49,783 nt of DNA, from the NCBI GenBank assembly GCA_022798105.1, contig JAAWLV010000002.1, positions 1 through 49,783 of the forward strand, in the 5' to 3' direction. Shown here piece after piece: positions 30,720 to 47,368 of this stretch. A model generated the notes under the pieces. The model had not been told where the DNA came from. It was given only the letters and a program-made list of their open reading frames with translations, and searched no databases. The stretch's first letter is position 1. Every line of letters begins with the position of its first letter. A program made the translations under genes and the position numbers. This DNA is from Hungatella sp. Its GTDB lineage: Bacteria; Bacillota; Clostridia; Lachnospirales; Lachnospiraceae.

Positions 30720-32203
30720 AGATGTTTGTCTCCTCGTTTTATCGGTGGATCAATTATACTAGACTTTTCGGCGGAAATCAATGACAAGTCTGTTTTTTTG
30801 GCTTTCCTGTATATTGAATTTCCCCACGCCGCCAGAATAATCCCGTACACCGCCGTCCCCGCCAAAACGCTTGCTATGACGGAAAAAGCCCCGTCAAGGC
30901 TTCGCTGCACCGCGGCCACAGCCATGGCCATAGCCCCTGTAGGCAGCAAGTATCTGGCAAACGCCCGGATAATCGGTCTGTACCTGGCAAAGCCCCTGAC
31001 AGCATGCAGCTGTCTGATCGTGGAAACACTTTCAGCCGCGACGGAGGCGATGACAGCGCCCATTGCACCCATGCCCAGACCGCGGACAAAGACAACATTC
31101 AAAACCACATTGACGGCGGCGGCCAGAGTCACCGCAACGGTATAATCCCTCTGCCGGTTCATGGCAATTAAAAAATTGCCGGTCATCTGCCCCAGGCTTA
31201 AGATTATAAACAGCAAACTTTCCGCCTGCATCAGCCCTATAACAGGCTCATACCCTTTTCCGAAAAAGAGAGGGACAAACTCGTTTGAAACCAGTATGCA
31301 TCCTGCCGTCATCGGCATGGCCAGCAAACATACAGCGTTGAGAGTCTTTTTGTAATACGCTTCTATCTGGTCTGTTTCATGGTTCCTGCAGGCAACGGCG
31401 ATTCTGGGCGTCACCACCGTAATGAACGCCGAGGGCAGCATCAGGGCAAGCCTGACGATTTTTTCCGTCTGGGAATAGTATCCCACTTCCGTTGTATTGC
31501 AAAGGCTTCCCAGCATGGTCTTATCCAGCACCGTATATAACTGGATGGAGATGAGGGGAACAAACAGTCCCATTATCTCTCTTGTATTTCGGAACATATG
31601 TATTTGATGGATTCCCGGCCACAGAACCTCCCGAAACACATAGGGCCACATGGTCAGATTCCCAAGAAGCATTGCCGCCGCGAGAATCAGCGTATACAGC
31701 CACAGATCATCGGTTTTGTTCACAAACAGAAAAATAAGGACGGTTCCCGCAAGCTTAACGGCGCTGTTTTTTATGGCGGTTATTTTAAAATTTTCGGTTC
31801 CGTGAAAATACCAGGTTATATCCCCGCTCCATGAAAAAACCGTAAGATACTGGATTGCAAACAAGGTTCTGTACCGGGGCATAAAATTCAGAAAAAAGAC
31901 GGTATAGGCAGCCAGAACCAGAATGCCGGACAGCGCCCTGAAAAAAAATATCTCCCAGAACAGGATGCTTCGCTGCTTCTTGTCATTCTGACGGACGGCA
32001 ATTTCCCTCTGGGCAAAGTATACGGTCCCTGTGGCGGCCGCAAGGCCGAAATATGAGACAATTCCAAAGGTATAGCTGTAATCCCCTATGGCCGTGGCCC
32101 CAAGGACTCTGGAAATATAGGGCGTTGTGATCAGAGGGACCATGATTGTGACGATCTGATACAGCAGATTATAAATGTAATTGATTCCCATACTCTTTTT
32201 CAT
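30716..32203 (-). CDS. wzx: Polysaccharide flippase (Wzx/MATE-like)
   Basis: Multi-TM MOP-superfamily protein starting MKKSMGINYIYNLLYQIVTIMVPLITTPYISRVLG; within EPS cluster. Confidence 0.88.
   Translation of the reverse strand: MKKSMGINYIYNLLYQIVTIMVPLITTPYISRVLGATAIGDYSYTFGIVSYFGLAAATGTVYFAQREIAVRQNDKKQRSILFWEIFFFRALSGILVLAAYTVFFLNFMPRYRTLFAIQYLTVFSWSGDITWYFHGTENFKITAIKNSAVKLAGTVLIFLFVNKTDDLWLYTLILAAAMLLGNLTMWPYVFREVLWPGIHQIHMFRNTREIMGLFVPLISIQLYTVLDKTMLGSLCNTTEVGYYSQTEKIVRLALMLPSAFITVVTPRIAVACRNHETDQIEAYYKKTLNAVCLLAMPMTAGCILVSNEFVPLFFGKGYEPVIGLMQAESLLFIILSLGQMTGNFLIAMNRQRDYTVAVTLAAAVNVVLNVVFVRGLGMGAMGAVIASVAAESVSTIRQLHAVRGFARYRPIIRAFARYLLPTGAMAMAVAAVQRSLDGAFSVIASVLAGTAVYGIILAAWGNSIYRKAKKTDLSLISAEKSSIIDPPIKRGDKHL
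30753..30781 (-). promoter_or_regulatory. Putative argS promoter inside the 3' end of wzx
   Basis: Minus strand TTGATT-17 bp-TATAAT ending ~34 nt upstream of the argS ATG. Confidence 0.6.
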
Positions 32204-33345
32204 TGCTGTTCTCCCTGTGCATCCGCTGTCCCATGGCTGATAACCCGCCAAATCCTGGCAGCCACATTGTCCCATGAGTACTCATTCAGGTAATATTCCC
32301 GGTTGTCTTTCACATTTGCGAAAACCGCCTCATCGCCCAGCAGCCTCTCCATCAGGCCGGCCAGCTCTTCCGCGCTCTGACTGCGCAGAAGATACCCTGT
32401 GTTCCCCTCGTCAATAAAGTAAGGCATCTCAAAGGCATTGCGGCCGATACAGGGAAGCCCGAAAGCAAGAGCCTCCGCAAACACCAGCCCATAGGCCTCA
32501 AATAGGGAGGGCATGCAGAATATATCGCACAGGTTAAAATACTCTGCCAGCTTATCCCCGGGCACATCGCCTAAAACATAAATGTTGGAACCGCACAGCC
32601 CCAGATTTTTTGGCCCTGCAATATACAGCCTGGCGTCAGGCCGTTTCCTGCAAAGCCTTTTAAATGCCTCCACAACCAACGGCCCGTTCTTCCTTTCAAA
32701 ATCCCTTCCCACAAACAGTATTTTGTTCCGCTTTTTTCCTGACGTGTCGATCCGACCGGGATCCAGGTTTATGCCTCCGCCCGCATGGAACACATTATTT
32801 TGACCAATCCCGTACTGCTGTGTCAGTTCTTTTTTCAGCCATTTCCCCATGGTAAAGACGGCGGTCCCTTCCTGCATAAACATTCTCTGCCCGTATTCGT
32901 TACAGTCAATCAGCCTTTTGGGAAGATAGGAATAACCGCTGACTTTAAACAGCCCCGGCTCCTCCTCAAACATTTTTTTCACGTAGCCGTAGTGCAGATC
33001 GATGTAGAGATACTGGTTTCTCCCGTTTTCCACAGACGGCATGTACTCAAACTGCAGCATGGGATAAGGCGCCTGGCGGATGGCAGGTTCTAAGCGGCGC
33101 TCAATCAGCGCCTTTTGAGCCTTCACGGGAAGCAGGGTGCTGCTGCCTGATACCTGGCATACCTTTTTTAAAACCTTGTAGGACAGCGACAAAATACGCT
33201 TATTATCGGAAAACCCCGTATCCACATCAACCACCGAATAATACCTGCCAAGGCTCTGCCTTAAATTCCAGTATGTCCCGGACCATGATTTTATCTTATC
33301 CTTTTTCCAGGGGCAGGCGTATATCAGCTTCTGCTCATTTGCCAT
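32200..33345 (-). CDS. Glycosyltransferase group 1 (GT4-like)
   Basis: KILFVGRDFERKNGPLVVEAFKRL; CMPSLFEAYGLVFAEALAFGLPCI. Confidence 0.9.
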   Translation of the reverse strand: MANEQKLIYACPWKKDKIKSWSGTYWNLRQSLGRYYSVVDVDTGFSDNKRILSLSYKVLKKVCQVSGSSTLLPVKAQKALIERRLEPAIRQAPYPMLQFEYMPSVENGRNQYLYIDLHYGYVKKMFEEEPGLFKVSGYSYLPKRLIDCNEYGQRMFMQEGTAVFTMGKWLKKELTQQYGIGQNNVFHAGGGINLDPGRIDTSGKKRNKILFVGRDFERKNGPLVVEAFKRLCRKRPDARLYIAGPKNLGLCGSNIYVLGDVPGDKLAEYFNLCDIFCMPSLFEAYGLVFAEALAFGLPCIGRNAFEMPYFIDEGNTGYLLRSQSAEELAGLMERLLGDEAVFANVKDNREYYLNEYSWDNVAARIWRVISHGTADAQGEQQ

Positions 33346-34255
33346 CCTTTATCCCCTCCCTCTCATCCATAAGCCTTAAAAAAACGCGGGCGGATATTAT
33401 GGTCTGTTCAAATTCAAAGAGTGCCTTATCCACTCTCAGAGGCAGAACTGTCCTTGTGGCCGTCCCCTCATTGTGTATCACTTTAAGTTCAGGAGAAAAC
33501 AAAAGCTTAAGCCCCTGCTCCCGGCACAGATAGTGCAGAATCCCTTCCTCCAGGTACATAAACGTGCCGGGGTAAAGTCCCTCCGGAAAGTGTCTGATAT
33601 ATTCGGGCCCCAAAATTAAAAAAGCGCCATGAAGGACCACACCGCTTTTTTCCCGCTGATTTCCCCTGGCCTTGCGGCGTCTGCAAAGCGCCGTTTTCGC
33701 TCTGTGAAATACAGGGTAGGTTCCCGTAAGTTTGAGGAACGTGAAGAGTCTGATATTTTTCCTGTAAACCTTTATCAGCCTTTTCAAATCGCTTCTTCCA
33801 TACCCCTGTTCCCTCAATGGATTTTGATAAATCCCTTTGTAGGGCGAATAAATATCCGGCCCGCACACCCCGAAACCTTGTTTCTCAAAAACCTCCGCCA
33901 TTGTGTCAAAAAAGTTTTCCTGCTGTATCTCAATGTCGTTGTTCATAAGAATGATAAAATCCGGCTCCCCGTCCTTAAGGGCGCACCTGTAACCGATATT
34001 ATTTCCGCAGGCAAAGCCCCGGTTCTCTTTTTCCAGAATTATGCGTATCCCGTCTCCACAGCCGTACTTTTCATTTAACAGCCGCCCGCTTTCATTGGAC
34101 GAGCCGTTGTCGACCACGATTACCTTAACCTCCGTCCTGACGCTTACGGCCCTTTGCATCAATACAGACTCGATACACTTGACAGTGTCGTTAAAGGCAT
34201 TGTAGTGTAAAATGACGCAGTACACCTTTGCCGGACAGCTTTCATCAAACCTCAT
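33335..34255 (-). CDS. Glycosyltransferase family 2
   Basis: VYCVILHYNAFNDTVKCIESV; VIVVDNGSSNES; DFIILMNNDIEI. Confidence 0.9.
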   Translation of the reverse strand: MRFDESCPAKVYCVILHYNAFNDTVKCIESVLMQRAVSVRTEVKVIVVDNGSSNESGRLLNEKYGCGDGIRIILEKENRGFACGNNIGYRCALKDGEPDFIILMNNDIEIQQENFFDTMAEVFEKQGFGVCGPDIYSPYKGIYQNPLREQGYGRSDLKRLIKVYRKNIRLFTFLKLTGTYPVFHRAKTALCRRRKARGNQREKSGVVLHGAFLILGPEYIRHFPEGLYPGTFMYLEEGILHYLCREQGLKLLFSPELKVIHNEGTATRTVLPLRVDKALFEFEQTIISARVFLRLMDEREGIKDGK

Positions 34256-35456
34256 GGGTTACCTCCGTTTCCTTCTTTAGGCATACATCCGCCATTGCCA
34301 GCAACATGGAGAAAAACAGGATGGATGTCCTGGACACAATATGATTGGCATTGGCAATGCCCACAGCGCTTGCGATTATGACCATGATCATGGAATTCAG
34401 GATCACCTTTCCCTCTCTGGTCTCTGTCCTCATCAGCTTTTTTATTCTCGCCAGCATACATAAAAACACAGATATAAGCCATAAAATCCCCGTTATGCCT
34501 GTCTGAAATATGTACCCAAGCAAACCGCAGTCCTCAATAAAGAACCATAAATCTATCCGGTACACCCTGTCCGCCAGCAGAGAGCCGCCCTTTAAGATCC
34601 CCATGCCGAACCATGGAGACTTTCTTAATTCCTTAAAATAGTAGAACAGTTCGCCCAGCCTGGTGGCCCCGCTTCCCATTCCCTCCTGTATCTCATCAAA
34701 AAAGGAAAACAAAAAATCCCAGTACGCTGTCTTTGAAAATAAATACACTCCGCAGGCCAGAAGCATCAAAAACAGCAGGTTCTTCAAAAAGGAACGGATG
34801 GTTCTGTCATTCCAGTATTTTCTGATAACGGCAATGGTTCCCGACGCGCACAAAACGATCATGGCCCCTCTGGACTGGGAAACAAAAACCAGCCCCCAGA
34901 GCATGATCACCAGCTGGATTTTCATTGTCTTTGTGGCAAGCCCCAAGATCAGATGGGAAAACGCGATAATTTCCGCAAAAAAAGACAGTTCAATCTCATA
35001 TATGCGGATCCTGCCGTTTCGGAATGCGTATTCAAACAGATTAAAATACGGATATAAAAGGGATTGGGCAATGGCAAGGATCGCAATGCAGACCGCAATC
35101 CGTATGATAAGCTTCATAGCTGTCCAAATCCCGTCGTCGTACAGGCAAAAGTAGTCATAAAAAATAAAATACGAAAGAAGGATAAAGATAAAATATATCC
35201 CTACCATCCCCTGTATTAAGGATTGTCCGTATCTGACATAACACACAATCACACTGGCAAACGCCACGGCAATACCGGCCAGGATCACAGGTTTGCTCTC
35301 ATAATCCGTTTTTATTATGTTCTTAAAATGGGCTGCCCCGTAGCAGATTGACAGCACCGCAACAGGGATGATGAAATTAATCCCCACAAGGGTCATGCCG
35401 TGGAGCAGCATCAAAACTCCCACAAGCAATTTCGATTTTTTAAACTTGATTACCAC
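34245..35456 (-). CDS. O-antigen-polymerase-like (Wzy) membrane protein
   Basis: Multi-TM protein with large periplasmic-loop-like region, located between GT genes. Confidence 0.7.
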   Translation of the reverse strand: MVIKFKKSKLLVGVLMLLHGMTLVGINFIIPVAVLSICYGAAHFKNIIKTDYESKPVILAGIAVAFASVIVCYVRYGQSLIQGMVGIYFIFILLSYFIFYDYFCLYDDGIWTAMKLIIRIAVCIAILAIAQSLLYPYFNLFEYAFRNGRIRIYEIELSFFAEIIAFSHLILGLATKTMKIQLVIMLWGLVFVSQSRGAMIVLCASGTIAVIRKYWNDRTIRSFLKNLLFLMLLACGVYLFSKTAYWDFLFSFFDEIQEGMGSGATRLGELFYYFKELRKSPWFGMGILKGGSLLADRVYRIDLWFFIEDCGLLGYIFQTGITGILWLISVFLCMLARIKKLMRTETREGKVILNSMIMVIIASAVGIANANHIVSRTSILFFSMLLAMADVCLKKETEVTHEV

Positions 35457-36491
35457 TTATCGCCTTTCCCCTTTTATCCATATTTTCCGGCATCTTTCCA
35501 GGCATCTGTGGTACAGGAAAGAGACGGCCCAAGCGGCCGTAAGGGAAATACATCCGGCCCCATACTCTAACTTGTCCCATCCCCCGCCCACGGAAAAAAT
35601 CACGGAAAAAACCAGGACATGCACGAGATACAGCTCATAGGCTGCCTCTGAGAGGGCCAGGATCCAGCCTTTAACCCGTCTGCCTCCGCAGCAATAGAGA
35701 AGCAGCGCAAAAAAACCGTATCCCATAAGCCCGAACACGTCATTAAAATTTTTAATTGGGCCTCCCCGTAAAGCGGTGGCCGCCGTCACCCCCAGCCCCA
35801 CAGCCGACAGGGCTGCCATAGAAAAGGCATTCAGGCGAATGCAGCATCCCTGTTCAGCCTGCTTTGCCAGGCACATTCCCAGTCCGAATTCCCAAAGGAA
35901 CTGAAGGAAAAAACTGTTCCAGATCCGTTTTGCATATAACCCTGTTACCGATATAAACCCCCACCAGCACCCGCTAAGCAGAAACGACACAAGGAAAAAC
36001 ACCCTGCCGCCGAGTTTTTCTTTCCATCTGCACAGGGGGAGAAACAACAAATACAATTGAAACAGCGTGGAAATAAACCAAAATTGTTCGCCAAAGCTGC
36101 ATTCATATTCCGGAATAAACATTTTATAGAGGAAGATGTGGCTGAAAAGGGCTTTGATCCGATTTCCGCCGTACATAACCGGTACAAGGGCGGATATCCC
36201 TATGATTATCACATAGGGGATATAGATCTTTAAAAACCGGCGGCGCAGAAATTCCAAATATCCCACGGGGTTTCTCATATATGACAGATACAGGCCGAAT
36301 CCGGAGCAGAAAAAAAACACATGGACTCCTGTCCCCCCAAGAGAAGAAGCTTTCCAAAGGAAGCCCGGGCATGATTTCAGATAGCCCTGGATCAGATGCA
36401 TGAGCACAATCGTAAGGATGGAAAATCCTCTCAGGAAAGCGATCTCATCATAATAGGTTCGGCCCCCGCGAAATTCAAAGGTTCTGTTCAT
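35457..36491 (-). CDS. Acyltransferase 3 family protein
   Basis: YDEIAFLRGFSILTIVLMHLI; GGTGVHVFFFCSGFGLYLSY. Confidence 0.87.
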   Translation of the reverse strand: MNRTFEFRGGRTYYDEIAFLRGFSILTIVLMHLIQGYLKSCPGFLWKASSLGGTGVHVFFFCSGFGLYLSYMRNPVGYLEFLRRRFLKIYIPYVIIIGISALVPVMYGGNRIKALFSHIFLYKMFIPEYECSFGEQFWFISTLFQLYLLFLPLCRWKEKLGGRVFFLVSFLLSGCWWGFISVTGLYAKRIWNSFFLQFLWEFGLGMCLAKQAEQGCCIRLNAFSMAALSAVGLGVTAATALRGGPIKNFNDVFGLMGYGFFALLLYCCGGRRVKGWILALSEAAYELYLVHVLVFSVIFSVGGGWDKLEYGAGCISLTAAWAVSFLYHRCLERCRKIWIKGERR

Positions 36492-37657
36492 GTCTGCTCC
36501 ACTTTTGTTTCACTTAACAGGCCGTAATCCCTCAAAAAGGCGTCGGCAATTTTATTCCAGTCAAAGTATCCTGCAACCTTCCGGTTATCCTCCCGAATCT
36601 CTGCAAGCTCTGATTGATCCATGGCGGCAAAGCTAAGGATCCCGGCAATCCATTCCTCCTCGCCGCCGGCCATAAAGACCCCTTTATGGCCCTTTAACAG
36701 CTCCTTTGCCTCTTCATCCCCAGGGGATGTGACAATCGGGATCCCATGGGCCAGATATGCAAGAAAGCTGCCTCTTCTCAGGGTCAGGCCGTCCTCGTAA
36801 AACAGAGTTGCCACATGAGTATTCTGGATTTCCCTTGACACCTCCTCGTCGGGGATGTACCCTGTAATTTTCACAGAATCCCACAACCTATACTGTTTCA
36901 GCCAGGTTATAACCTGATTATGGTATTCCGAAAAATGGTTTTTGTTTCCGGGATCCACCTCCCCGATAATTTTAAACCGGAACCTTCCCTCCTTATCCCT
37001 CTCTTTAAGCTCTTTCCAGTTTTTAAGCATCCGCTCAATTCCCTTTCCTGGATAGACGCTTCCAAAATAAGAGATTACAATTGTTCCGTTTTCTCTTTCT
37101 GTTGTTTTTGCCGTGCAGACGGGGATGTTGTTTCCGATAAGGGTTCTTTTCACCCGTTTTCCCGCTATTTTTTTGACAGCCCTGCGATCAGGCAGCGCCG
37201 GGACGTAGATGGAATCGGCAAACAGAAGAATCGGCAGTATGGCCGCTTTTCTGAGAAACCTGGCGCATGTAAATTCATGGAGCCTGACATAGAAGGCGAT
37301 TTTAGGTTTTCCTATTCCATATAATTTTGTAATCAGAGGAAGAAAGCTGGCAAGCAGTGTTTTTCCATAACAGTCCCCCGGATACTCCATGTGGACTGCC
37401 TTTATTCCGTCTTTCTTCAGCATACTGATATATGTTTTAATATTTTTAACCGTTATATTCCAGTTATCCAGATACGTTACAGCTGCACAGGCTGTCCCGT
37501 TTGCCTCAACATAATTCCTTATAACCGGCAGATTGGTTGTCAGAAGTTCAATCTTGTGTTCCCCCGCAGATTTTGCCATTGCATCCAACAATATCTTTGC
37601 TGCCGCGGCAATCCCCTCATGACTTGCCGGATAGCTCCCGCTTATATAAAGAAGCAT
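36488..37657 (-). CDS. Glycosyltransferase (GT4-like)
   Basis: ISYFGSVYPGKGIERMLKNW; DGLTLRRGSFLAYLAHGIPIVTS. Confidence 0.82.
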   Translation of the reverse strand: MLLYISGSYPASHEGIAAAAKILLDAMAKSAGEHKIELLTTNLPVIRNYVEANGTACAAVTYLDNWNITVKNIKTYISMLKKDGIKAVHMEYPGDCYGKTLLASFLPLITKLYGIGKPKIAFYVRLHEFTCARFLRKAAILPILLFADSIYVPALPDRRAVKKIAGKRVKRTLIGNNIPVCTAKTTERENGTIVISYFGSVYPGKGIERMLKNWKELKERDKEGRFRFKIIGEVDPGNKNHFSEYHNQVITWLKQYRLWDSVKITGYIPDEEVSREIQNTHVATLFYEDGLTLRRGSFLAYLAHGIPIVTSPGDEEAKELLKGHKGVFMAGGEEEWIAGILSFAAMDQSELAEIREDNRKVAGYFDWNKIADAFLRDYGLLSETKVEQT

Positions 37658-37658
37658 T

Positions 37659-38204
37659 CTATTCCCCCGTTCCCCCAGCTGCTTTTCTGTCTAATATGCT
37701 GCTGACCAATTGTTCGAACTCTTCATTAAACTTTATATTATTGCCTGCCAGCCCGGTTTTCATGGAACCTGCGATTTTCTCATAGCTGTAAATCCGTTTT
37801 GCAAGCTCCTCAATATCCTCGACCACAATGATATTGCGTCTGCGTGCTTCCACCGCTTTTGCAAATTCCACCTGGTGGTCATTGACATGTTCCCGGAACT
37901 TTTTTTGCCTTGGCACTACAATAGGCACTTTTCCTGCCTGAAGAGCCATAATAAAACTGGACGGTCCGCCATGGGTAATAATAATCCTGGCTCTTTTCAC
38001 ATAATCTGCCATAACCTCATAGGGATACAGCTTGCTCCACTGGCAGTATTCAGGCACATAGGTGCTGTAACCTGTCTGTATCACCACAGTCTCTTTCAGC
38101 ACCTTTTGTCTGCACAGATCGTCCATGTAACTGACAAGCCGGTTAAAGGGCTGCTCATGAGTGCCGACGGTCACAAAAATCATCTGTTCTCTCTTCCTTC
38201 TCAA
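37659..38204 (-). CDS. EpsF/PssE-like (ALG13-type) glycosyltransferase subunit
   Basis: MIFVTVGTHEQPFNRLV; IITHGGPSSFIMALQAGKVPIVVPRQ. Confidence 0.88.
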   Translation of the reverse strand: MRRKREQMIFVTVGTHEQPFNRLVSYMDDLCRQKVLKETVVIQTGYSTYVPEYCQWSKLYPYEVMADYVKRARIIITHGGPSSFIMALQAGKVPIVVPRQKKFREHVNDHQVEFAKAVEARRRNIIVVEDIEELAKRIYSYEKIAGSMKTGLAGNNIKFNEEFEQLVSSILDRKAAGGTGE

Positions 38205-38662
38205 AATATGCTTCCAAGATTAACTGCCTTTTTATATACGTGTTTCATCTCTTCCCACTGAACCACAAACCCGTCTGCTGCCGGGTAGACCAGCTTCCCT
38301 GTCAAAGTGGGCCTGTCAATGCGGTCAAAGACCTCTATGTAGATTGTTTTTGCCCCGAATAATTTTCCGATATAGAAAAAAGGGACCGCAACCGCGGCGC
38401 CGGTTGATATAATCAGATCCGGGCGTTCTTTTTTTAATACGTTCCACGCAATCACAGTATTTTTTATCAGTGCCTTTATGCTCCTGTTGGTGGGAAAATA
38501 ACATGGATATATCCGCTCTCCTTTTAGCAGGCTTCTGGCATCCTCCTTGTCAAAAGTCACCCAAAAGCGATCTTTCTCCTGCCAGAAGGGCTTTAACATG
38601 TAAAGATGCGCCAGATGACCGCCGGAAGACGCTGCAAAGCAGATTTTACTTTTATCACCCAT
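38201..38662 (-). CDS. PssD-like (ALG14-type) glycosyltransferase subunit
   Basis: KICFAASSGGHLAHLYMLKPFW; LIISTGAAVAVPFFYIGKLFGAKTIYIEVF. Confidence 0.88.
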   Translation of the reverse strand: MGDKSKICFAASSGGHLAHLYMLKPFWQEKDRFWVTFDKEDARSLLKGERIYPCYFPTNRSIKALIKNTVIAWNVLKKERPDLIISTGAAVAVPFFYIGKLFGAKTIYIEVFDRIDRPTLTGKLVYPAADGFVVQWEEMKHVYKKAVNLGSIF

Positions 38663-38689
38663 ATCATTCCCCCTTCCTGTTTATCAGCG

Positions 38690-38723
38690 GGCCGGCCGAC
38701 CCTTAGGCCGGCCGGCCTTTTTT
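38690..38723 (+). terminator. GC-rich hairpin plus T-run reading on the plus strand, inside the EPS operon
   Basis: GGCCGGCC...GGCCGGCC immediately followed by TTTTTT on the plus strand. Confidence 0.6.
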
Positions 38724-38724
38724 C

Positions 38725-39105
38725 TTATGCCTCTTCGCTGCCCTTCTTCAGTTTCCTGCGGGTTAGCAGTTCCATAGCCGCAATTCCCAGGCCTGAGCCT
38801 GCAAACAGCATGAGCCACAAACTGCCGTTGCTGGTGTCTCCCATCCCAGGTGTTGATGCCAGCGGCACCTGCTGGTCGGGAATGGCTGCCAGGGGTACGG
38901 CCCCGTCCTCAATAACCATCTGAGCTAACGGCACATCGCCGTTCTCAATGGTTATGGTCTCCGGGCCGGTTACGTCTCCTGTGGGAGTCACCACTGTCCC
39001 TCTGGCGCTGGGGCTGACCGCGTACGCAGTCATGGTCGTACCTCCCACTGTCAGGATCCCCGACATCATCAATGTCATCAGACATTTCCTGCTCCGTTTT
39101 TTCAT
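38725..39105 (-). CDS. Small secreted surface protein with VPLA repeats and degenerate sortase-like C-terminus
   Basis: Signal peptide; GDVPLAQ..GAVPLAA..QQVPLAS repeats; STPGMGDTSNGSLWLMLFAGSGLGIAAMELLTRRKLKKG (motif-TM-basic tail). Confidence 0.65.
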   Translation of the reverse strand: MKKRSRKCLMTLMMSGILTVGGTTMTAYAVSPSARGTVVTPTGDVTGPETITIENGDVPLAQMVIEDGAVPLAAIPDQQVPLASTPGMGDTSNGSLWLMLFAGSGLGIAAMELLTRRKLKKGSEEA

Positions 39106-39182
39106 ACATGTTCACCCTCTTTCCTCTTTACTTTTTTATTCAATAAACAGGCTCCTGAAAGCCTGGTTATTGCACCCTGTTC

Positions 39183-40247
39183 TCATACTTCCCGGTAAAA
39201 CAGTTCTAAAAGGATCGGCGTCAGCCCTTCCTTATCCATGTAAAATTCATTGTACACCTGCCCCATCACCGACCGGCCGGGTACCGTATAGAAATCCCCA
39301 TCCTCCAGTCCGGCGCTTCCTGCCGCGTCCATGGCCATTTTCAGATACTCCTCTTTTCTCATGTCTGTCACCATGTAGCTTTCTATCTCCTCAAACAGCT
39401 CCCCGACAATCCCGCTGTCCTTTTTCGACTGTTCCTGGACCGCGCGGAGAAATCCCATAATAAACTCCTTCTCACGCTCCAGGCGGTAGATGGCAGAGTG
39501 GGCTTCTTCAATATCCCGGTATCTTACAAAGGCTTCTGCCTGCTCCCCTTTCAGGGTTACGACGGCTCCTTTCACAAAGGCCGGATCCTTTTTCTCCATC
39601 CCGTCTGACGGTATGGTTACGGTCACCCCTCCTACACGGTTGTTTAAAAGGTTTATCACCTCCGTGTCCGCGGCCATGTACCAGTCAAACTCAAATCCCC
39701 CAAGGGCCTGCGACAAAGCCTCTTGTACACGCTGGCAGCTGCCTTCCCTTCCGTCGCCGTAAGCGTACGCCAGGTTCAAATGCTGAATATCCTTCCCCAG
39801 CACATTACCGCTTAAATCCGTCAGGGTAATCTCCGTCATGGTATCCCTGGGCACAACCAGAAAGCGGATGGTATTCCGGGCCGTGTCCTGGGCGATGACA
39901 AAGATCCCGTCTGCCTGACCGCCCATGGTGTGAGTTACAATCTCCTCCATGGATCCCTGTCTGTCCACCCCCATGCACAAAATGGCTTTCACGTTGCTGC
40001 TTCTTTTGTAGGTCTTTCCGTTGTATTCCACAGTCCCCGTCAAATCCTTAGGAACCTGTGTGCTCTGCGGGGAAGATCTGCCGGCAATTTGTTTTTCCGT
40101 CAATGTCCGCTGCCGGTACAGATACACCGTCAGCACAGTGACGGCTGCTGCCAGAATCACCGCTGCCCCTGCCAGAGTCCTTCTCCATATCCTAAGCCTT
40201 TTGCCGGCATCCCTTCTTTTTTTGGCCCGCATCTGTTCTCCCCGCAT
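39183..40247 (-). CDS. LytR-CpsA-Psr (LCP) family protein
   Basis: N-terminal TM; AILCMGVDRQG; FLVVPRDTMTEI; HLNLAYAYGDGR; start set at ATG overlapping the cpsD stop. Confidence 0.9.
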   Translation of the reverse strand: MRGEQMRAKKRRDAGKRLRIWRRTLAGAAVILAAAVTVLTVYLYRQRTLTEKQIAGRSSPQSTQVPKDLTGTVEYNGKTYKRSSNVKAILCMGVDRQGSMEEIVTHTMGGQADGIFVIAQDTARNTIRFLVVPRDTMTEITLTDLSGNVLGKDIQHLNLAYAYGDGREGSCQRVQEALSQALGGFEFDWYMAADTEVINLLNNRVGGVTVTIPSDGMEKKDPAFVKGAVVTLKGEQAEAFVRYRDIEEAHSAIYRLEREKEFIMGFLRAVQEQSKKDSGIVGELFEEIESYMVTDMRKEEYLKMAMDAAGSAGLEDGDFYTVPGRSVMGQVYNEFYMDKEGLTPILLELFYREV

Positions 40248-40969
40248 TATCTGCCGCTTTCCCTGTCTGCTTTGTAGTGGCTGTACCTTCCGTATTTTCC
40301 ATATTTTCCGTATTTCCCGTAATAGCCCTTGCCCTGGATATCCACCTTGTTCAAGACTGCCCCCAGAATCCGGCACCCGGTCTTCTCCAGCTGGGATTTT
40401 ACCTTCTGCTCCAGACGGTAGCTGATGGCATTGCTCTCAATCACCAGAAGGACGCCGTCGCATCTTTTTGCTATAATCGCCCCGTCCGCCAGGCTGGCCA
40501 TGGGAGGCGTATCCACGATAATGCAGTCATAGCCGATGCGCAGCGCCTCAAACATCCGTCCGCAGGCCTCATCCTCCAGAAGCTCCGAGGGGTTGGGGGA
40601 GTAGGGACCTGAAAATATAACGCTTAAGTTTTCTTCGCTGGTTTCATAAATGATCTCCTCCAGCTCCCTCTGTCCGCTTAAAAACTGGGAAAGGCCGTTT
40701 ACCTCCTGCTCTATCTGATACCTGGCCGGAAGCACTGACTTCCGGATATCCCCGTCCACCAAAAGGGTCCTTCTCCCTATCTGGGCGAGGGACTGGGCAA
40801 GGGCAAAGGAAATATCGCTTTTCCCCTCGTCCGGCAGCGCGCTGGTCACCATGATCACCTTGATGCTTCTTCCGCAGAACTGCAGGTTGGTTCTCAGGGT
40901 CTTTACGGCTTCCTCATAGTGATAGTCTTCACTCATTGCCCTTCTCAGTTCCAGCACCGGCTTTGCCAT
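40247..40969 (-). CDS. CpsD/CapB-type tyrosine-protein kinase (BY-kinase) with Tyr-rich tail
   Basis: VIMVTSALPDEGKSDISFALAQSLAQIGRRTLLVDGDIRKS; VDTPP; tail YYGKYGKYGKYGRYSHYK; RBS GGGAGG before ATG at 40969. Confidence 0.92.
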   Translation of the reverse strand: MAKPVLELRRAMSEDYHYEEAVKTLRTNLQFCGRSIKVIMVTSALPDEGKSDISFALAQSLAQIGRRTLLVDGDIRKSVLPARYQIEQEVNGLSQFLSGQRELEEIIYETSEENLSVIFSGPYSPNPSELLEDEACGRMFEALRIGYDCIIVDTPPMASLADGAIIAKRCDGVLLVIESNAISYRLEQKVKSQLEKTGCRILGAVLNKVDIQGKGYYGKYGKYGKYGRYSHYKADRESGR

Positions 40970-41003
40970 CTTAAATCCTCCCTTTTCTTCCCTTGTCTTT
41001 TTC

Positions 41004-41762
41004 CTATCGGGATCCGCCTGATACACGGGCCACTTCCTGTTCCTTGATTTTTTTGTCTTTCCTGGCATCGCCTTCCCGTCCGGGCACCGACGCCAGCACG
41101 GTTATCCCCAGATACCGCTCCACATCCTCCTCGGTGCGGATCGTGTCATTGAATATTACCTCCATAACAAGGATAAAGCATACGGCCGCCGCCATGCCCA
41201 CAGCTCCTAACAGGGCATATTTTTTGACTGACGGCCTTGTGGGAAGCTCTGCCAGCTCCCCGTTTTCAATGAGCTTCGGCGGAACCATCTCCATGATGTC
41301 CCCGATGTAATCGGACGCCGAGGACGCCATCTGATCCACGATGGCCTTGGCCAGGGCCGGATCCGGATTATCGATGGAAATGGTGATAATACGGGTGTCC
41401 GCCGGATTGTCAATGTTAAGCCGGCGTCTTAAGGTTTTATAAGTAATATCCAGCCTCAGCTTCTCAATGACTTCCTGAAGCACCGGGCGGCTGGTGATGA
41501 TCACCTGATAGTCTTTGGTCAGCTGGCTCCCGATCTGCAGATCGGCCAGAGATGCCAGTGTCGTCTCTTTAGACAGCACATACAGCATCGCCGTCGAGGT
41601 ATACTGGGGAGTCATTATAAACTTGGCAAATGCCCCCGCGCCTGCCCCTCCAATGGCCATGGCCAGCAAAATCAGCCACAGCTTCTTTTTCCATGCCAGC
41701 AATATCTCCAGCAGATCAATCTCCGCCTCGTCTTCCTCATACGCTTTTCGTCTCTGTTCCAT
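41004..41762 (-). CDS. CpsC/Wzz-type chain-length determinant / BY-kinase adaptor
   Basis: EIDLLEILLAWKKKLWLILLAMAIGG N-terminal TM and second TM ALLGAVGMAAAVCFILVMEVIF. Confidence 0.88.
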   Translation of the reverse strand: MEQRRKAYEEDEAEIDLLEILLAWKKKLWLILLAMAIGGAGAGAFAKFIMTPQYTSTAMLYVLSKETTLASLADLQIGSQLTKDYQVIITSRPVLQEVIEKLRLDITYKTLRRRLNIDNPADTRIITISIDNPDPALAKAIVDQMASSASDYIGDIMEMVPPKLIENGELAELPTRPSVKKYALLGAVGMAAAVCFILVMEVIFNDTIRTEEDVERYLGITVLASVPGREGDARKDKKIKEQEVARVSGGSR

Positions 41763-41765
41763 CTT

Positions 41766-42494
41766 TTAGTTTCCCCGATTTATCCATTCTCTGTTTATGA
41801 TGTGCAGGGCGTTGTCCCTGGTTATATGTTCCAAAAGCTCCTGGTTTACGTGGCTCTTTAACCATTTTTCCGCGGCTGTTATCTTAGGCGGACGGAAATC
41901 CATACGGTGCATGTCGCTTCCAAGAAAATCGATCCTGCCCAAAAGCACCTGCCTCCTTCTCCATCTGGTCTCCGCCAGGTACCATTTCCCCGAAAGGCCG
42001 CTGTAGTTCATCTGCAGCAGGCACCCGCTCTTTGTCAAATCCAGTAAATTCTTTTCTTCCCTCAGGCACGCGTATCTCTCCATGTGGGCCAGTATGGGGG
42101 TGTAGCCTGCCTGGAACAGCCGGCTACACCCCCGATACAGTTCCCGGTATGAGACGCCCGGCGCAAATTCCGTCAGCACGTACCTGCTTCCTGCCATGGT
42201 CAGAGCCTCATGTTCCTTTAACTTTGCAGTCAGCTCCTCATGGTAATAATTCTCCTGCCCCAGATAGATCCTGAAATCCGGATACGTTTCCTGCAGCTTT
42301 TTTTCCAGATCGTTTGCAAGGGCGGCCAGTTCCTGCCCTCTCCCCCTTGTCTCGTGGGGCGTGGCAATGACGCCCCGCACGCCCTGGGCCGCCGCTATCC
42401 ACAGCATCTTCCGGGCCTCCTCCATGCTTCGTGCCCCGTCGTCCACCCCCGGCAGGACGTGGGCGTGCACGTCTATGAGCCCGCCTCCTAACAT
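41766..42494 (-). CDS. CpsB/CapC-type PHP-family tyrosine-protein phosphatase
   Basis: LIDVHAHVLPGVDDGARSMEEA; VIATPHE; PILAHMERY; FLGSDMHR. Confidence 0.92.
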   Translation of the reverse strand: MLGGGLIDVHAHVLPGVDDGARSMEEARKMLWIAAAQGVRGVIATPHETRGRGQELAALANDLEKKLQETYPDFRIYLGQENYYHEELTAKLKEHEALTMAGSRYVLTEFAPGVSYRELYRGCSRLFQAGYTPILAHMERYACLREEKNLLDLTKSGCLLQMNYSGLSGKWYLAETRWRRRQVLLGRIDFLGSDMHRMDFRPPKITAAEKWLKSHVNQELLEHITRDNALHIINREWINRGN

Positions 42495-43525
42495 GCCCCG
42501 TCCTTTGTCACCACTGCCTTCACCGTCTTTACAAGTATCCGGATGTCGCCTTTTAAGCTCCAATTGTCCACATACTCCTTATCCAGCCGTACCACTTCCT
42601 CAAAATCCTTTATCTTGCTTCTTCCGCTTATCTGCCACAGGCCTGTTATCCCCGGCTTGGTGGCCAGCCTTATCCTGTGATGCCATTCATATTTCATCCA
42701 TTCGTCCACCGTCGGAGGACGGCTGCCTATCAGGCTCATCTCCCCCTTGAGCACGTTCCAGAACTGGGGAAATTCATCCAGCGAATACTTCCTGATAAAG
42801 CCTCCGATGCCCCGCTCTCCTCCGATTATCCTGGGATCGTTTTCTATCTTGAACATCATTCCGTCCTTCACCTGATTTTTTTCTGTCAGCTCCTTTTTCC
42901 GCTCCTCCGCGTCCGGGTACATACTTCTGAACTTATACATGAAAAAACGCCTCCCGTTCTTTCCAACCCGCTCCTGGACAAAAAATATGGGGCCCGGGGA
43001 ATAAAAGCAGATAACCGGCCCTATAACTATCACCAGCATAAGTGTCAGCACACACCCCACAATCCCTCCGATTATGTCTAAAAGCCGTTTGCATGCCGCC
43101 TGTTTTACGGAGATCCTGTAAAAGCTGCTGCTCAGTACCGTGTACTCTCCAAGCTTTTTCACATCCTGTCTATGGCCGTCCTGCTTTACCGCCTTTAACA
43201 GGTTTAAGTGCACCGTCACCCCCATCTCGATCAGATACCGGTAAAACCCGTCCGGAAAGGGGGCCTCCCTGGGCAGGGCGATCAGGACCTCATCCACCCA
43301 TTCCCGGCATACAAACTCAATGACCGTATCCCCGCAGGCCCCTATCTCCACGCCGTTTATCCTCTGCCCGATTCGTTCCCTTCCCTCAGCATCCATCAGG
43401 ACAACCCGCAGCATGTACTGGCTTGCGTAATTGCTGGTTCTCACGTTCTCTATGACTGTGGCTGCCACATCCCAGACAGTCACAATAATCAGGGACTTTT
43501 TCTTCCCTTTTCTATCGTGCGTCAT
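42488..43525 (-). CDS. Undecaprenyl-phosphate sugar phosphotransferase (WbaP/CpsE-type catalytic domain)
   Basis: KRLLDIIGGIVGCVLTLM; YKFRSMYPDAEERK; FIRKYSLDEFPQFWNVLKGEMSLIGSRPPT; KPGITGLWQISGRS. Confidence 0.93.
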   Translation of the reverse strand: MTHDRKGKKKSLIIVTVWDVAATVIENVRTSNYASQYMLRVVLMDAEGRERIGQRINGVEIGACGDTVIEFVCREWVDEVLIALPREAPFPDGFYRYLIEMGVTVHLNLLKAVKQDGHRQDVKKLGEYTVLSSSFYRISVKQAACKRLLDIIGGIVGCVLTLMLVIVIGPVICFYSPGPIFFVQERVGKNGRRFFMYKFRSMYPDAEERKKELTEKNQVKDGMMFKIENDPRIIGGERGIGGFIRKYSLDEFPQFWNVLKGEMSLIGSRPPTVDEWMKYEWHHRIRLATKPGITGLWQISGRSKIKDFEEVVRLDKEYVDNWSLKGDIRILVKTVKAVVTKDGAC

Positions 43526-43596
43526 ATGTATCCCCCCGCCGCTTTCCCTTAATTCCCCTTGACATACCGGCTCTGGCGGCCGGCCAAGCGGCCTGT

Positions 43597-44280
43597 TCAC
43601 TCTCTTTTATAAATCACAGTCAATATCCCAGCCTCAGGCAGCGGTACTGTCACCGTCTTGGCCTCCGGCGCCACTTCCTTCGGTTCTATGACTTCCCATT
43701 TTTGGGATTCCCTTCCATAAAACAGGACGGACACCTCCTCAAGGCCTTTTATCAGGTTCGGAACATACACAGCCACCTCTCCGCCCCGGCCGGTAAATTC
43801 CCCGTTTTCACGGTCTCTTCCTATGATTCCGCTGGGGACTATAAGGGCATAAAACTTATCCAGCCCTTCAATCCCCGTGGCCTCTGCCAAAGATTCCCCA
43901 TTATGTATCCTCTCTATCTGTCCTGCGGCCTCCTCTGACAGGCCGGGGACGGCTGTGAAAAAATCCGTATATTCAAATATCACAGAGCCTTCCCGGGCGT
44001 TGGGTGCCTCTTTTCCCCGGCTCATTTGCTCCTTCTGGTTTTGCGTCACCGCAGCCTCCTTGGGGTTTACTGCCTCCTGTGTACCCTTAAGCCGGTCTTC
44101 CTCCTGGGATTCTCCAGTCTCCCAGGCGGTTTTTACACTGCTTTCGGCAATGCTTATGTCTTCGCCGATGTGGTTTCTTCCCCCCATCCAAGTGGAAACT
44201 CCATATCCTGCAGCCCCCAAGACACTCAGCATAATCAGCAGGGCTCTGATGATCTTCCTGTTTCTCTCTCCCATGGTCAT
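43597..44280 (-). CDS. Conserved hypothetical membrane-anchored protein of EPS operon
   Basis: N-terminal TM IIRALLIMLSVLGAAGYGVS then soluble domain; collinear with EPS genes. Confidence 0.65.
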   Translation of the reverse strand: MTMGERNRKIIRALLIMLSVLGAAGYGVSTWMGGRNHIGEDISIAESSVKTAWETGESQEEDRLKGTQEAVNPKEAAVTQNQKEQMSRGKEAPNAREGSVIFEYTDFFTAVPGLSEEAAGQIERIHNGESLAEATGIEGLDKFYALIVPSGIIGRDRENGEFTGRGGEVAVYVPNLIKGLEEVSVLFYGRESQKWEVIEPKEVAPEAKTVTVPLPEAGILTVIYKRE

Positions 44281-44318
44281 ATCCGCCTGTTTTTCTCAGA
44301 TTGCTTTTCCGCAGCTTC

Positions 44319-44813
44319 TCACCCGAAAATTTGATTTTCAGCTTTATGTCCCTGCGCCATAGCAAGCTCTCTCAAAAACCCGCCGTGCATCTCCTCCTCG
44401 GCCCTTTTTCTGGCTTCCACCGCATCCTCAAACCGATGGTAGCATCCCAGATAGTACCGCCTCCCTTTAAAGCAGATGGACGCCCGCCAGGTTCCCTTGG
44501 ATGCCCGCCAGTCCACCCCGGGGACTCCGCTGGTGTTATTTCTCCGGACTGTCCCGGCTTTAAGCATCTCCACACAGGTACCGTCAATATATGTCAGGCT
44601 GGCAAGGCCTCCTCCTGCTCTCTCCGCCCCTTCGCACCCGCAGCTTCCCACATGGCCGCTGCGCAGATAACAGGTTTTGACAACGAGTTCCTTTCCGCAC
44701 TCACAGCGGCACAGCCACGCGGTTTTGGTGCCCACGTTATCCGCAGGGCAAAGAACCGTCAGTTTCTTGTATTTCTGGCCGGCCAGATTTAGTTTTTTCC
44801 TGGAATGTGCCAT
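44319..44813 (-). CDS. AP2-domain DNA-binding protein with N-terminal Cys-rich (zinc-ribbon-like) segment
   Basis: WLCRCECGKELVVKTCYLRSGHVGSCGC; NTSGVPGVDWRASKGTWRASICFKGRRYYLGCYHRFEDAVEARKRAEEE is an AP2-like fold; RBS GAGGGCGG. Confidence 0.85.
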   Translation of the reverse strand: MAHSRKKLNLAGQKYKKLTVLCPADNVGTKTAWLCRCECGKELVVKTCYLRSGHVGSCGCEGAERAGGGLASLTYIDGTCVEMLKAGTVRRNNTSGVPGVDWRASKGTWRASICFKGRRYYLGCYHRFEDAVEARKRAEEEMHGGFLRELAMAQGHKAENQIFG

Positions 44814-44849
44814 TTTATCCGCCCTCTTTCACATGGCCCTTTTGTCACG

Positions 44850-44864
44850 GAATCCGTATTCTGT
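44850..44864 (+). repeat. Left inverted repeat (IRL) of putative invertible promoter: GAATCCGTATTCTGT
   Basis: Exact reverse complement of 45096-45110. Confidence 0.85.
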
Positions 44865-45028
44865 GACAAAAGGGCAGGGAAAAAGGCCTTCAAATATGGA
44901 TAATATATTATTTGGGAATAAAAAAAACACCTGACGATATGCCGCAGATGTATGAAGCCCATGAAAATGAAAGAACACAAATAACAAGTTTGTGGTCTTT
45001 ATTTTTGTACTGAATTTTTAGCTGTCTA

Positions 45029-45058
45029 TTGCAATTGAAAGCCGTACTATGGTATAAT
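45029..45058 (+). promoter_or_regulatory. Sigma-A extended -10 promoter TTGCAA-18-TATAAT (TGgTATAAT), currently pointing rightward
   Basis: ttgcaattgaaagccgtactatggtataat at 45029-45058. Confidence 0.75.
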
Positions 45059-45095
45059 AGGCAAAAGAAAAAAGAACATACAGCTCTTTTGGGGA

Positions 45096-45110
45096 ACAGA
45101 ATACGGATTC
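45096..45110 (-). repeat. Right inverted repeat (IRR): ACAGAATACGGATTC on the plus strand
   Basis: Exact reverse complement of 44850-44864. Confidence 0.85.
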
Positions 45111-45118
45111 TGTATCCC

Positions 45119-45976
45119 CTAACTGACCAGTCCCATCTGTTCCAGCTGCCGGGCATGCTCTGCGCCGGTAGTTATAAGGTAAATGCGCGTCGTTTCCACA
45201 CAGCTGTGCCCCAGCACATCCGCCAGTTTTACAATGTCCCCCGTCACCTGATAAAAGACGGTTGCGAACAGATGGCGAAGATTGTGGGGGAACACCTTGG
45301 AAGGTTCTACGTTCGCCTTTGCACACAGGGATTTCATGGCCCGCCATATTTTATATCGTGTCAGGCTTTTTCCGTCTTCGGCCCGAAAGATTTCGCCGGA
45401 GACGATTTTTTTTGTTTTTGCATATTTAAGCAGCTTCCTGCACAGCCTGTCCGGCAGAAGGATGGTGCGTATTTTGCCTTTAAGCGATACATCCGCCCGG
45501 CCTGCCCGCAGGGCCTCCACCGTAATATATCTTACCTCAGACACTCGGATGCCTGTGGCGCATATGCTCTCCATCACAAGAGCCAGCCATTCCGGGCACC
45601 CATAAGCGGCACCTTTAAGCAGACGGCTGTACTCCTCCTGAGTCAAATCCTGGGAGGCGTCGCGAAACGTCCTTCTCTGCCTCTTCAAAAGCCTTACCCG
45701 GCATCCGTCCCATCTCAAAAAGGCGAACAGGCTGTTGATGGCGGACAGCTTGGTGTTTACCGTAGCCGGCGCAAACCCTTCATCCAGAAGGGAATTTTTC
45801 CACTGCGCCGCCGATTCTTTCGTTACAGCCCTTCCATCCAGCCACAGGGCGAACATACGGATATCCCGCAGATACTTTTCAATGGTAGCCCCGGCCCTCT
45901 CCTCGTTGACGAGAAAACTCCTGTAATATCCGATCTGTTCTTCTGTCAGCCAATACTCAAATCCATAGTCAAGCAT
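45119..45976 (-). CDS. Tyrosine recombinase/integrase (XerC/D-like), candidate DNA invertase
   Basis: Core-binding SAM-like N-terminus; ATGIRVSEV, HNLRHLFAT, LGHSCVETTRIYL catalytic R-HxxR-H-Y motifs; RBS GGAGG before ATG at 45976. Confidence 0.92.
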   Translation of the reverse strand: MLDYGFEYWLTEEQIGYYRSFLVNEERAGATIEKYLRDIRMFALWLDGRAVTKESAAQWKNSLLDEGFAPATVNTKLSAINSLFAFLRWDGCRVRLLKRQRRTFRDASQDLTQEEYSRLLKGAAYGCPEWLALVMESICATGIRVSEVRYITVEALRAGRADVSLKGKIRTILLPDRLCRKLLKYAKTKKIVSGEIFRAEDGKSLTRYKIWRAMKSLCAKANVEPSKVFPHNLRHLFATVFYQVTGDIVKLADVLGHSCVETTRIYLITTGAEHARQLEQMGLVS

Positions 45977-46060
45977 AATCTGTACCTCCGCAAACACAAA
46001 CAGCCGTTTTCGGCACCCGCATACAATTCCATGAGGAAAACGCAGCCTGCCGGAAACGGC

Positions 46061-47368
46061 CTAATATTTCTGCTTATCGTTTTTGCTGATATCCCTGCCC
46101 AGCTGAACTTCTATAAGCTGCAGTTCCTCGCAGGCGATCACCCTATGGCGGCTTCCCGCCTTCATGGAGACAATATCCCCCGTCCGGATCTCTCTTGTCA
46201 CACCCTCTACGATTGCCTGTCCCGCCCCCTGGATCACGATCCAGACTTCATCCCTGTTGCGATGGCTGTGGTAGTTCATGCCGTGCCCTGCCTTCAAAGT
46301 AACTTTGATGGTCAGACTTTCCGATCCCACATCCAGAATCCGGAAGCTTCCCCATGATTTTTCGGCAAACATGCTCTGCGGCTCAAGCTTGTCGACAAAG
46401 GGTTTGATATAGCTGGACTGATCCTTGTCAGATACCAGGATCCCGTCCGGGCTGGCGGAGATAACCACATCCTTCAGTCCCATAGCCAATATGGGGATTT
46501 CCAGCTCGTTAACAATATGGACGTTGTCGCAGCCGTCATCCATTGTGGCATTGCCCACGCAGTGTTCTTCCATGGCTTCCGTCAGCGTATTCCATGTGCC
46601 CAGATCTTTCCATTGGCCGGGAAAACGCATTACCTGAATATGCTCCTCCTTCTCCGCAACCGCATAGTCAAAGCTGATCTTCGGCAGGCTTTCAAACTTG
46701 CGCACCAGATCGTTATAATCATCAAAATCTATCATCTCGTGGACCTTGCGCAGCATGTAGCCCAGCTTATAAGAAAAAACGCCTCCGTTCCACAGCGCCC
46801 CCGCGTTATTGATATATTCGCCGGCCGTTTTGGCGTCAGGCTTCTCTTTAAAAGCCAAAACCCTGCTGACTTTTTTATTATCTGCCGGGATAATGTATCC
46901 GTATTTTTCACTGGGGTATGTAGGCTGAAGCCCCATGAGGATAAGGTTTGCCTCCCCCTTGTCTGCCTGCTGCTGCAGCTCTTTTAAAGCCTGGAAATAC
47001 TCTTCCTCCGCATAAGGGTCAACCGGACACACCACGACCGATTCCTCCGGGTTCACTCCCTGAACCTCAGAAAGATACACGCTTGCCAGGGCTATGGCAG
47101 GAAATGTATCCCGGCGGCACGGTTCCACGGAAATTCCCACCTGGCTTCCAAGCTGGTTATGGATAGAGGAAACCTGTGCCCTGCTGGTGGCAATGGTTAT
47201 CCTGGCATCCTCATCCACCGCTTTGATCTGGCGGTAGATCCGCTGAACCATGGATTCATAAGAGCCGTCCCGGGTTTTAAAGATTTTTATGAACTGTTTT
47301 GAGCGGATGTCATTGGACAGAGGCCACAGGCGCTTGCCCGATCCTCCCGATAACAACACAATGTTCAT
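46061..47368 (-). CDS. manC: Mannose-1-phosphate guanylyltransferase / mannose-6-phosphate isomerase type II
   Basis: VLLSGGSGKRLWPLSNDIRSKQFIK; C-terminal cupin GMNYHSHRNRDEVWIVIQGAG. Confidence 0.94.
   Translation of the reverse strand: MNIVLLSGGSGKRLWPLSNDIRSKQFIKIFKTRDGSYESMVQRIYRQIKAVDEDARITIATSRAQVSSIHNQLGSQVGISVEPCRRDTFPAIALASVYLSEVQGVNPEESVVVCPVDPYAEEEYFQALKELQQQADKGEANLILMGLQPTYPSEKYGYIIPADNKKVSRVLAFKEKPDAKTAGEYINNAGALWNGGVFSYKLGYMLRKVHEMIDFDDYNDLVRKFESLPKISFDYAVAEKEEHIQVMRFPGQWKDLGTWNTLTEAMEEHCVGNATMDDGCDNVHIVNELEIPILAMGLKDVVISASPDGILVSDKDQSSYIKPFVDKLEPQSMFAEKSWGSFRILDVGSESLTIKVTLKAGHGMNYHSHRNRDEVWIVIQGAGQAIVEGVTREIRTGDIVSMKAGSRHRVIACEELQLIEVQLGRDISKNDKQKY

Follow-up and report, generated by a model that had tools for sequence, protein, structure and literature searches.

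Phase-variable surface coats are well studied in Bacteroides and Clostridioides difficile, and little in many uncultured gut Clostridia. Several described systems resemble the locus reported here. In read-based work on a defined gut community, a Clostridia inverton group (group 139) with an adjacent tyrosine recombinase was described, and its example element of about 256 nt shifted orientation in culture (PMC11892184). In E. coli, a tyrosine recombinase (FimB/FimE) inverts fimS, a promoter segment of about 300 bp that lies beside a surface-structure operon. In the cwpV switch of C. difficile, the promoter stands outside a 195-bp element, and a terminator acts in the OFF state (PMC2784873). Phase-variable promoters of polysaccharide loci are also found in Bacteroides, where the invertase Mpi is a serine recombinase (PMC5903667).

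The DNA analyzed here, referred to as the window, is a 49,783-nt stretch of a Hungatella sp. genome. It carries a locus that is strongly supported as a promoter switch operated by a recombinase; we put the probability that the locus is a phase-variation switch, in which a promoter-bearing segment is inverted, at about 0.93.

Recombination sites, promoter and recombinase

An exact 15-mer, GAATCCGTATTCTGT, is located at 44850-44864, and its reverse complement is located at 45096-45110. These repeats had been pointed out in an earlier note on this DNA, and we could extend the match to 18 nt (94%; 44847-44864 and 45096-45113), with 231 nt between the two copies. The chance expectation for 15-nt inverted pairs 80-700 nt apart is approximately 0.03 in DNA of the size of the window. 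Each repeat contains an inner dyad with an asymmetric 4-nt centre, as the note had also described: the distal site on the operon side (44847-44864) reads ACGGAAT-ccgt-ATTCTGT, and the proximal site on the recombinase side (45096-45113) reads ACAGAAT-acgg-ATTCTGT, its spacer being the complement of the distal spacer. The dyad form of the proposed crossover site therefore stood, but the motif given for it, ACRGAAT-CCGT-ATTCTGT, had to be corrected to ACARAAT-4nt-ATTYTGT. Judged by this form (ACARAAT-nnnn-ATTYTGT), both 18-nt repeats are tyrosine-recombinase-type sites. The operon-side site is embedded in a longer palindrome with 18-nt arms (44836-44875), so that transcripts made in the ON state could start with a strong hairpin before the start codon of the first gene.

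The repeats enclose a putative invertible segment of 231 nt (44865-45095), which contains one outward promoter and, upstream of it, hairpins between A and T tracts that are terminator- or insulator-like. The predicted promoter (45029-45058, + strand), TTGCAA-18-TATAAT with an extended -10 TG, was the only strong sigma-70 match within 44250-46100, with a score of 13.0 (95% limit from shuffles, 11.1), and it now faces the 3' end of the recombinase gene. The promoter-bearing segment between inverted repeats was thus found as previously proposed. Since the sole good sigma-A promoter between the sites points away from the exopolysaccharide (EPS) operon, the window copy is correctly read as being in the predicted OFF state. 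Inversion would bring the -10 element to 44902-44907, about 90 nt ahead of the start codon of an AP2-like gene, which is the distance that the note had estimated.

The recombinase gene (45119-45997, - strand) ends 8 nt from the right-hand 15-mer, again as noted earlier, and encodes a 292-aa tyrosine recombinase in which R151, K175, H238, R241, H264 and Y273 are intact. These six catalytic residues (R, K, H, R, H, Y) were kept in 77/77 recombinases of our set. The protein contains a Phage_integrase domain (Pfam, 6.8e-21), rather than the Resolvase domain of Mpi-type enzymes, and an N-terminal SAM-like domain. By sequence, XerD-type structures were the nearest to it. It is accordingly described as Xer-like, its scores lying below the curated NCBIfam cut-offs for XerC/XerD (112.7 vs 329.6 for TIGR02225 and 96.7 vs 335.15 for TIGR02224). 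The model of FimB/FimE-type DNA invertases (PRK09870) did not match the window protein, and matched only one relative weakly (L010, 22.5 vs 221). A phage origin was rejected, as IMG/VR gave one 58% relative only. The same genome encodes a further recombinase with approximately 31% identity (G000:C200:3994-4773), which belongs to a second group in the genus; the genes of this group had no ACARAAT site pair next to them.

On the operon side, the AP2-like gene (44319-44813, - strand) is followed by an EPS operon of the Wzx/Wzy type (30716-44280, - strand). The operon encodes a sugar transferase, a CpsB/CapC phosphatase, Wzz, a BY-kinase ATPase, an LCP protein, an LPXTG-like protein, Alg14/GT28, GT1 and GT2 proteins, an acyltransferase, a polymerase and a flippase (at 30716). 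A gene for a ManC-like mannose-1-phosphate guanylyltransferase (46061-47368, - strand) lies upstream of the recombinase gene, outside the switch.

Related loci and matched spacers

The site pattern was searched across the source genome, a partial assembly of 210 contigs that is 73% complete. Two further complete cassettes were detected, on contigs C126 and C8. In both, a recombinase gene (product 67-69% identical), the two sites and an AP2-like gene are arranged as in the window cassette. The next gene on C126 encodes an EPS-type sugar transferase, and the C8 cassette reaches the contig edge. These paralogous arrangements are the strongest support for the observation.

Relatives of the recombinase were sought in one genome per species, which yielded 75 proteins, mostly from Oscillospiraceae and Lachnospiraceae; within the genus, 15 of the 26 genomes searched contained a match. 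A site pair was present directly after the recombinase gene in most of the related loci, with a median of 12 nt from the recombinase match to the first site and a median of 250 nt between sites. A matched pair was not found in L038, L096 and L097. Because the pairs had been chosen on their arms alone, the centre could be tested afterwards. The arms are conserved, and the 4-nt centre, which varies from locus to locus, was perfectly matched within the locus in 61/65 loci, compared with 2.0% of between-locus pairings (binomial p about 1e-98; some loci are close kin, and L017 and L106 are identical in sequence, so that the set is not fully independent and p values are indicative). A matched centre is a requirement of a strand-exchanging tyrosine recombinase and not of a fixed operator. 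In L020, L037, L045, L047, L049 and L080, three sites were observed instead of two, two of them direct and one inverted, an arrangement by which deletion as well as inversion would be possible.

The genes controlled elsewhere appear to be of several kinds. In other loci they encode giant proteins of the BspA type with leucine-rich repeats, collagen-like, SpaA-like and Ig-like surface proteins, an ABC exporter, or sugar-nucleotide enzymes. The earlier claim of an EPS phase switch is thus supported as regards a promoter inverted by a recombinase, and narrowed as regards its cargo: the wider switch family in Clostridia has several cargos, of which EPS is one. With the sequence rule of an ACARAAT-4nt-ATTYTGT pair right after the gene of an Xer-like recombinase, switches of EPS clusters and of giant surface proteins can be located in Oscillospiraceae and Lachnospiraceae.

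Orientation of the segment among relatives

Segments of related loci carry TTGnnn-17/18-TATAAT promoters with an extended -10 TG near one end, pointing outward. A locus was scored for orientation if its best promoter lay above the 95% limit of the shuffles and the two directions differed clearly. Of 50 scorable promoters, 42 were directed toward the recombinase gene (OFF) and 8 toward the cargo (ON), an excess of OFF across the family that could partly come from assembly consensus. The source genome holds both states, since the window and C126 cassettes are OFF and the C8 cassette is ON. The ON call for L045 was contradicted by homology to L039, L048 and L057 and was left out of the support. 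A strand-specific TATGTA was also observed 3-26 nt past the -10 element in 24/49 promoter-oriented segments (for example L010, L030, L053 and L093), compared with a mean of 1.4 and a maximum of 5 in shuffles and 1 on the opposite strand; the window segment has no TATGTA after its -10 element.

Inverted homologues were detected by direct alignment. One assembly holds both L029 and L068, cassettes whose flanks are collinear but whose segments could be aligned only with one of them inverted (75% over 163 nt). Opposite-strand homology of the segments was also found between L010 of the source genome and L092 of another species (about 68 nt, including the promoter) and between L034 and L036 (33 nt). 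An inverted same-species copy, sought as a DNA pattern in viral contigs, was not found there. The earlier note had named a lack of inverted relatives and unconserved repeats as the outcome that would speak against a switch; instead, the sites are kept and segments are inverted among relatives. Sites, spacer rule, promoter direction and catalytic residues can all be read from the sequences, as can the existence of both orientations among relatives and paralogues of the window cassette.

Alternative readings

The family may invert while the window copy is a decayed switch, fixed in the OFF state by one arm-base difference or by a silent recombinase. The left arm, ACGGAAT, does differ from the right arm, ACAGAAT. 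However, arms that differ to this extent are frequent across the family, and paralogues and relatives retain such differences. The catalytic residues, the spacer and the promoter are intact in the window copy; we consider such a locked state unlikely, although it is the best of the alternatives.

Another reading is that, as in cwpV, a terminator flips in front of an outside promoter and no promoter is moved. A GC stem between A and T tracts lies upstream of the promoter in many segments of related loci, and terminator-like matches opposite to the promoter were found in 33/55 segments, against 5/55 in one shuffle. Matches in the promoter's own direction were present in 13/55 segments, against 0 in one shuffle. 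However, many of the hairpins are flanked by A and T tracts at either end and thus look two-way, so that we softened the idea of a terminator strictly opposite to the promoter. Moreover, nearly all segments contain a strong extended -10 promoter, and within 44250-46100 of the window the promoter lies inside the segment, with no good promoter directed toward the operon. A flipping terminator is therefore improbable. The fold upstream of the promoter had a mean z of -1.6 across segments and only -0.75 in the window, where the weakly folding hairpins were absent from the results of the 44250-46100 scan. We assign moderate confidence to the predicted hairpins acting as an insulator against read-through.

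Finally, the repeats might be operator dyads of a regulator or transcript hairpins in a fixed segment with an incidental recombinase, as each site is itself palindromic and the left one extends to 18-nt arms. A fixed operator, however, would have no need of a locus-specific asymmetric centre that is copied in inverted form and in every case accompanied by an intact recombinase. The spacer rule and the inverted homologues rule this reading out for practical purposes.

Proposed mechanism and the first gene behind the switch

In the proposed promoter switch, the recombinase encoded at 45119-45997 would bind both ACARAAT/ATTYTGT dyads, and strand exchange within the matched central bases would invert the 231 nt between them. 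As the segment now lies, transcription from its only strong promoter would lead away from the operon and run antisense into the recombinase gene. The hairpins beside this promoter probably stop read-through coming from the recombinase gene, which would leave the AP2-like gene and the EPS operon OFF. Inversion would turn both ON, with transcription from the promoter crossing the distal site and entering first the AP2-like gene and then the EPS cluster. We infer that the window copy flips by means of its own recombinase and that EPS expression follows.

The 164-aa AP2-like protein has a zinc-ribbon-like CxCxCG...SCGC motif, the cysteines of which are invariant, and an AP2-like region. Its score for Pfam AP2 (PF00847) was 19.8 bits, below the gathering score of 33.3. 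In a structure model (pLDDT 79.5), the top fold matches were AP2 domains of plants and Plasmodium, with E > 0.01. In the genomes searched, 12 of 13 close copies follow inverted-repeat segments, four of which are of a different type and two of these four lie beside serine-recombinase genes. Within the genus, 8/10 close copies follow a tyrosine-type switch, and the remaining two (G004: L121/L159 and L127/L160) follow a gene for a Resolvase-type serine recombinase and a separate pair of 20-22-nt inverted repeats, 113-117 nt apart. In G288, from another genus, two of three copies (L156 and L157) follow similar pairs with no adjoining serine recombinase; close serine recombinases are encoded elsewhere in that genome. 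In this second, shorter switch type (G004 and G288), the repeats are 20-23 nt long and 113-117 nt apart. A XerD-like gene beside L157 was set aside as the switch enzyme, being probably of the housekeeping type.

In about eight loci (L019, L022, L023, L029, L033, L062, L068 and L081), the first gene is instead a recombinase paralogue, kept as an open frame, that lacks the catalytic histidines and tyrosine; the L068 paralogue is cut by the contig end, its catalytic part falling outside the available sequence. In four further loci, the first gene encodes a small protein of about 90 aa. Any of these products, made in the ON state only, may act on the switch or on elongation through the long operon, and in the OFF state the promoter would yield antisense RNA to the recombinase gene. 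Together, the ON-only accessory and the antisense RNA would bias cells to OFF. Such a built-in, state-dependent feedback, with an AP2-like accessory common to unrelated tyrosine- and probable serine-recombinase switches, is a tentative idea that we hold to be somewhat doubtful. The strong OFF excess might be explained by feedback from the accessory and by antisense transcription across the recombinase gene. Among the papers searched, none links an AP2 domain, phase variation and a recombinase. The recurrent AP2-like and inactivated-recombinase genes can be tested directly as possible regulators of switching or of the operon that is switched.

Comparison with known systems

Group 139, or invertase group 35, shares with the window family the Clostridia host, the adjoining tyrosine recombinase and the element size, and its flipping was seen in reads (PMC11892184). 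It differs in that the main text of that report, in the parts available to us, does not describe accessory proteins. The two are probably related, a likeness drawn from host class, recombinase and size and not from the inverted-repeat motif. The window switch resembles fimS in its general plan, but invertases of the FimB/E type are about 200 aa long, whereas the window recombinase is a 292-aa, Xer-like protein with an added SAM-like domain. The cwpV and flagellar switches of C. difficile (RecV) are similar in their Clostridia tyrosine recombinase, in controlling surface structures and in the terminator idea. However, RecV works in trans on several sites, whereas every site pair of the window family has a recombinase gene of its own next to it. 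Behind the Bacteroides capsule promoters, the first gene is likewise a dedicated one (UpxY); the first gene in the window is AP2-like, and Mpi acts in trans. The earlier note had cited Mpi as a parallel, but since Mpi is a serine recombinase (PMC5903667), the parallel is functional only. The earlier reading was right on the essentials, and the switch belongs with fimS, cwpV and the invertons; what is new here is how often an accessory gene directly follows the switch.
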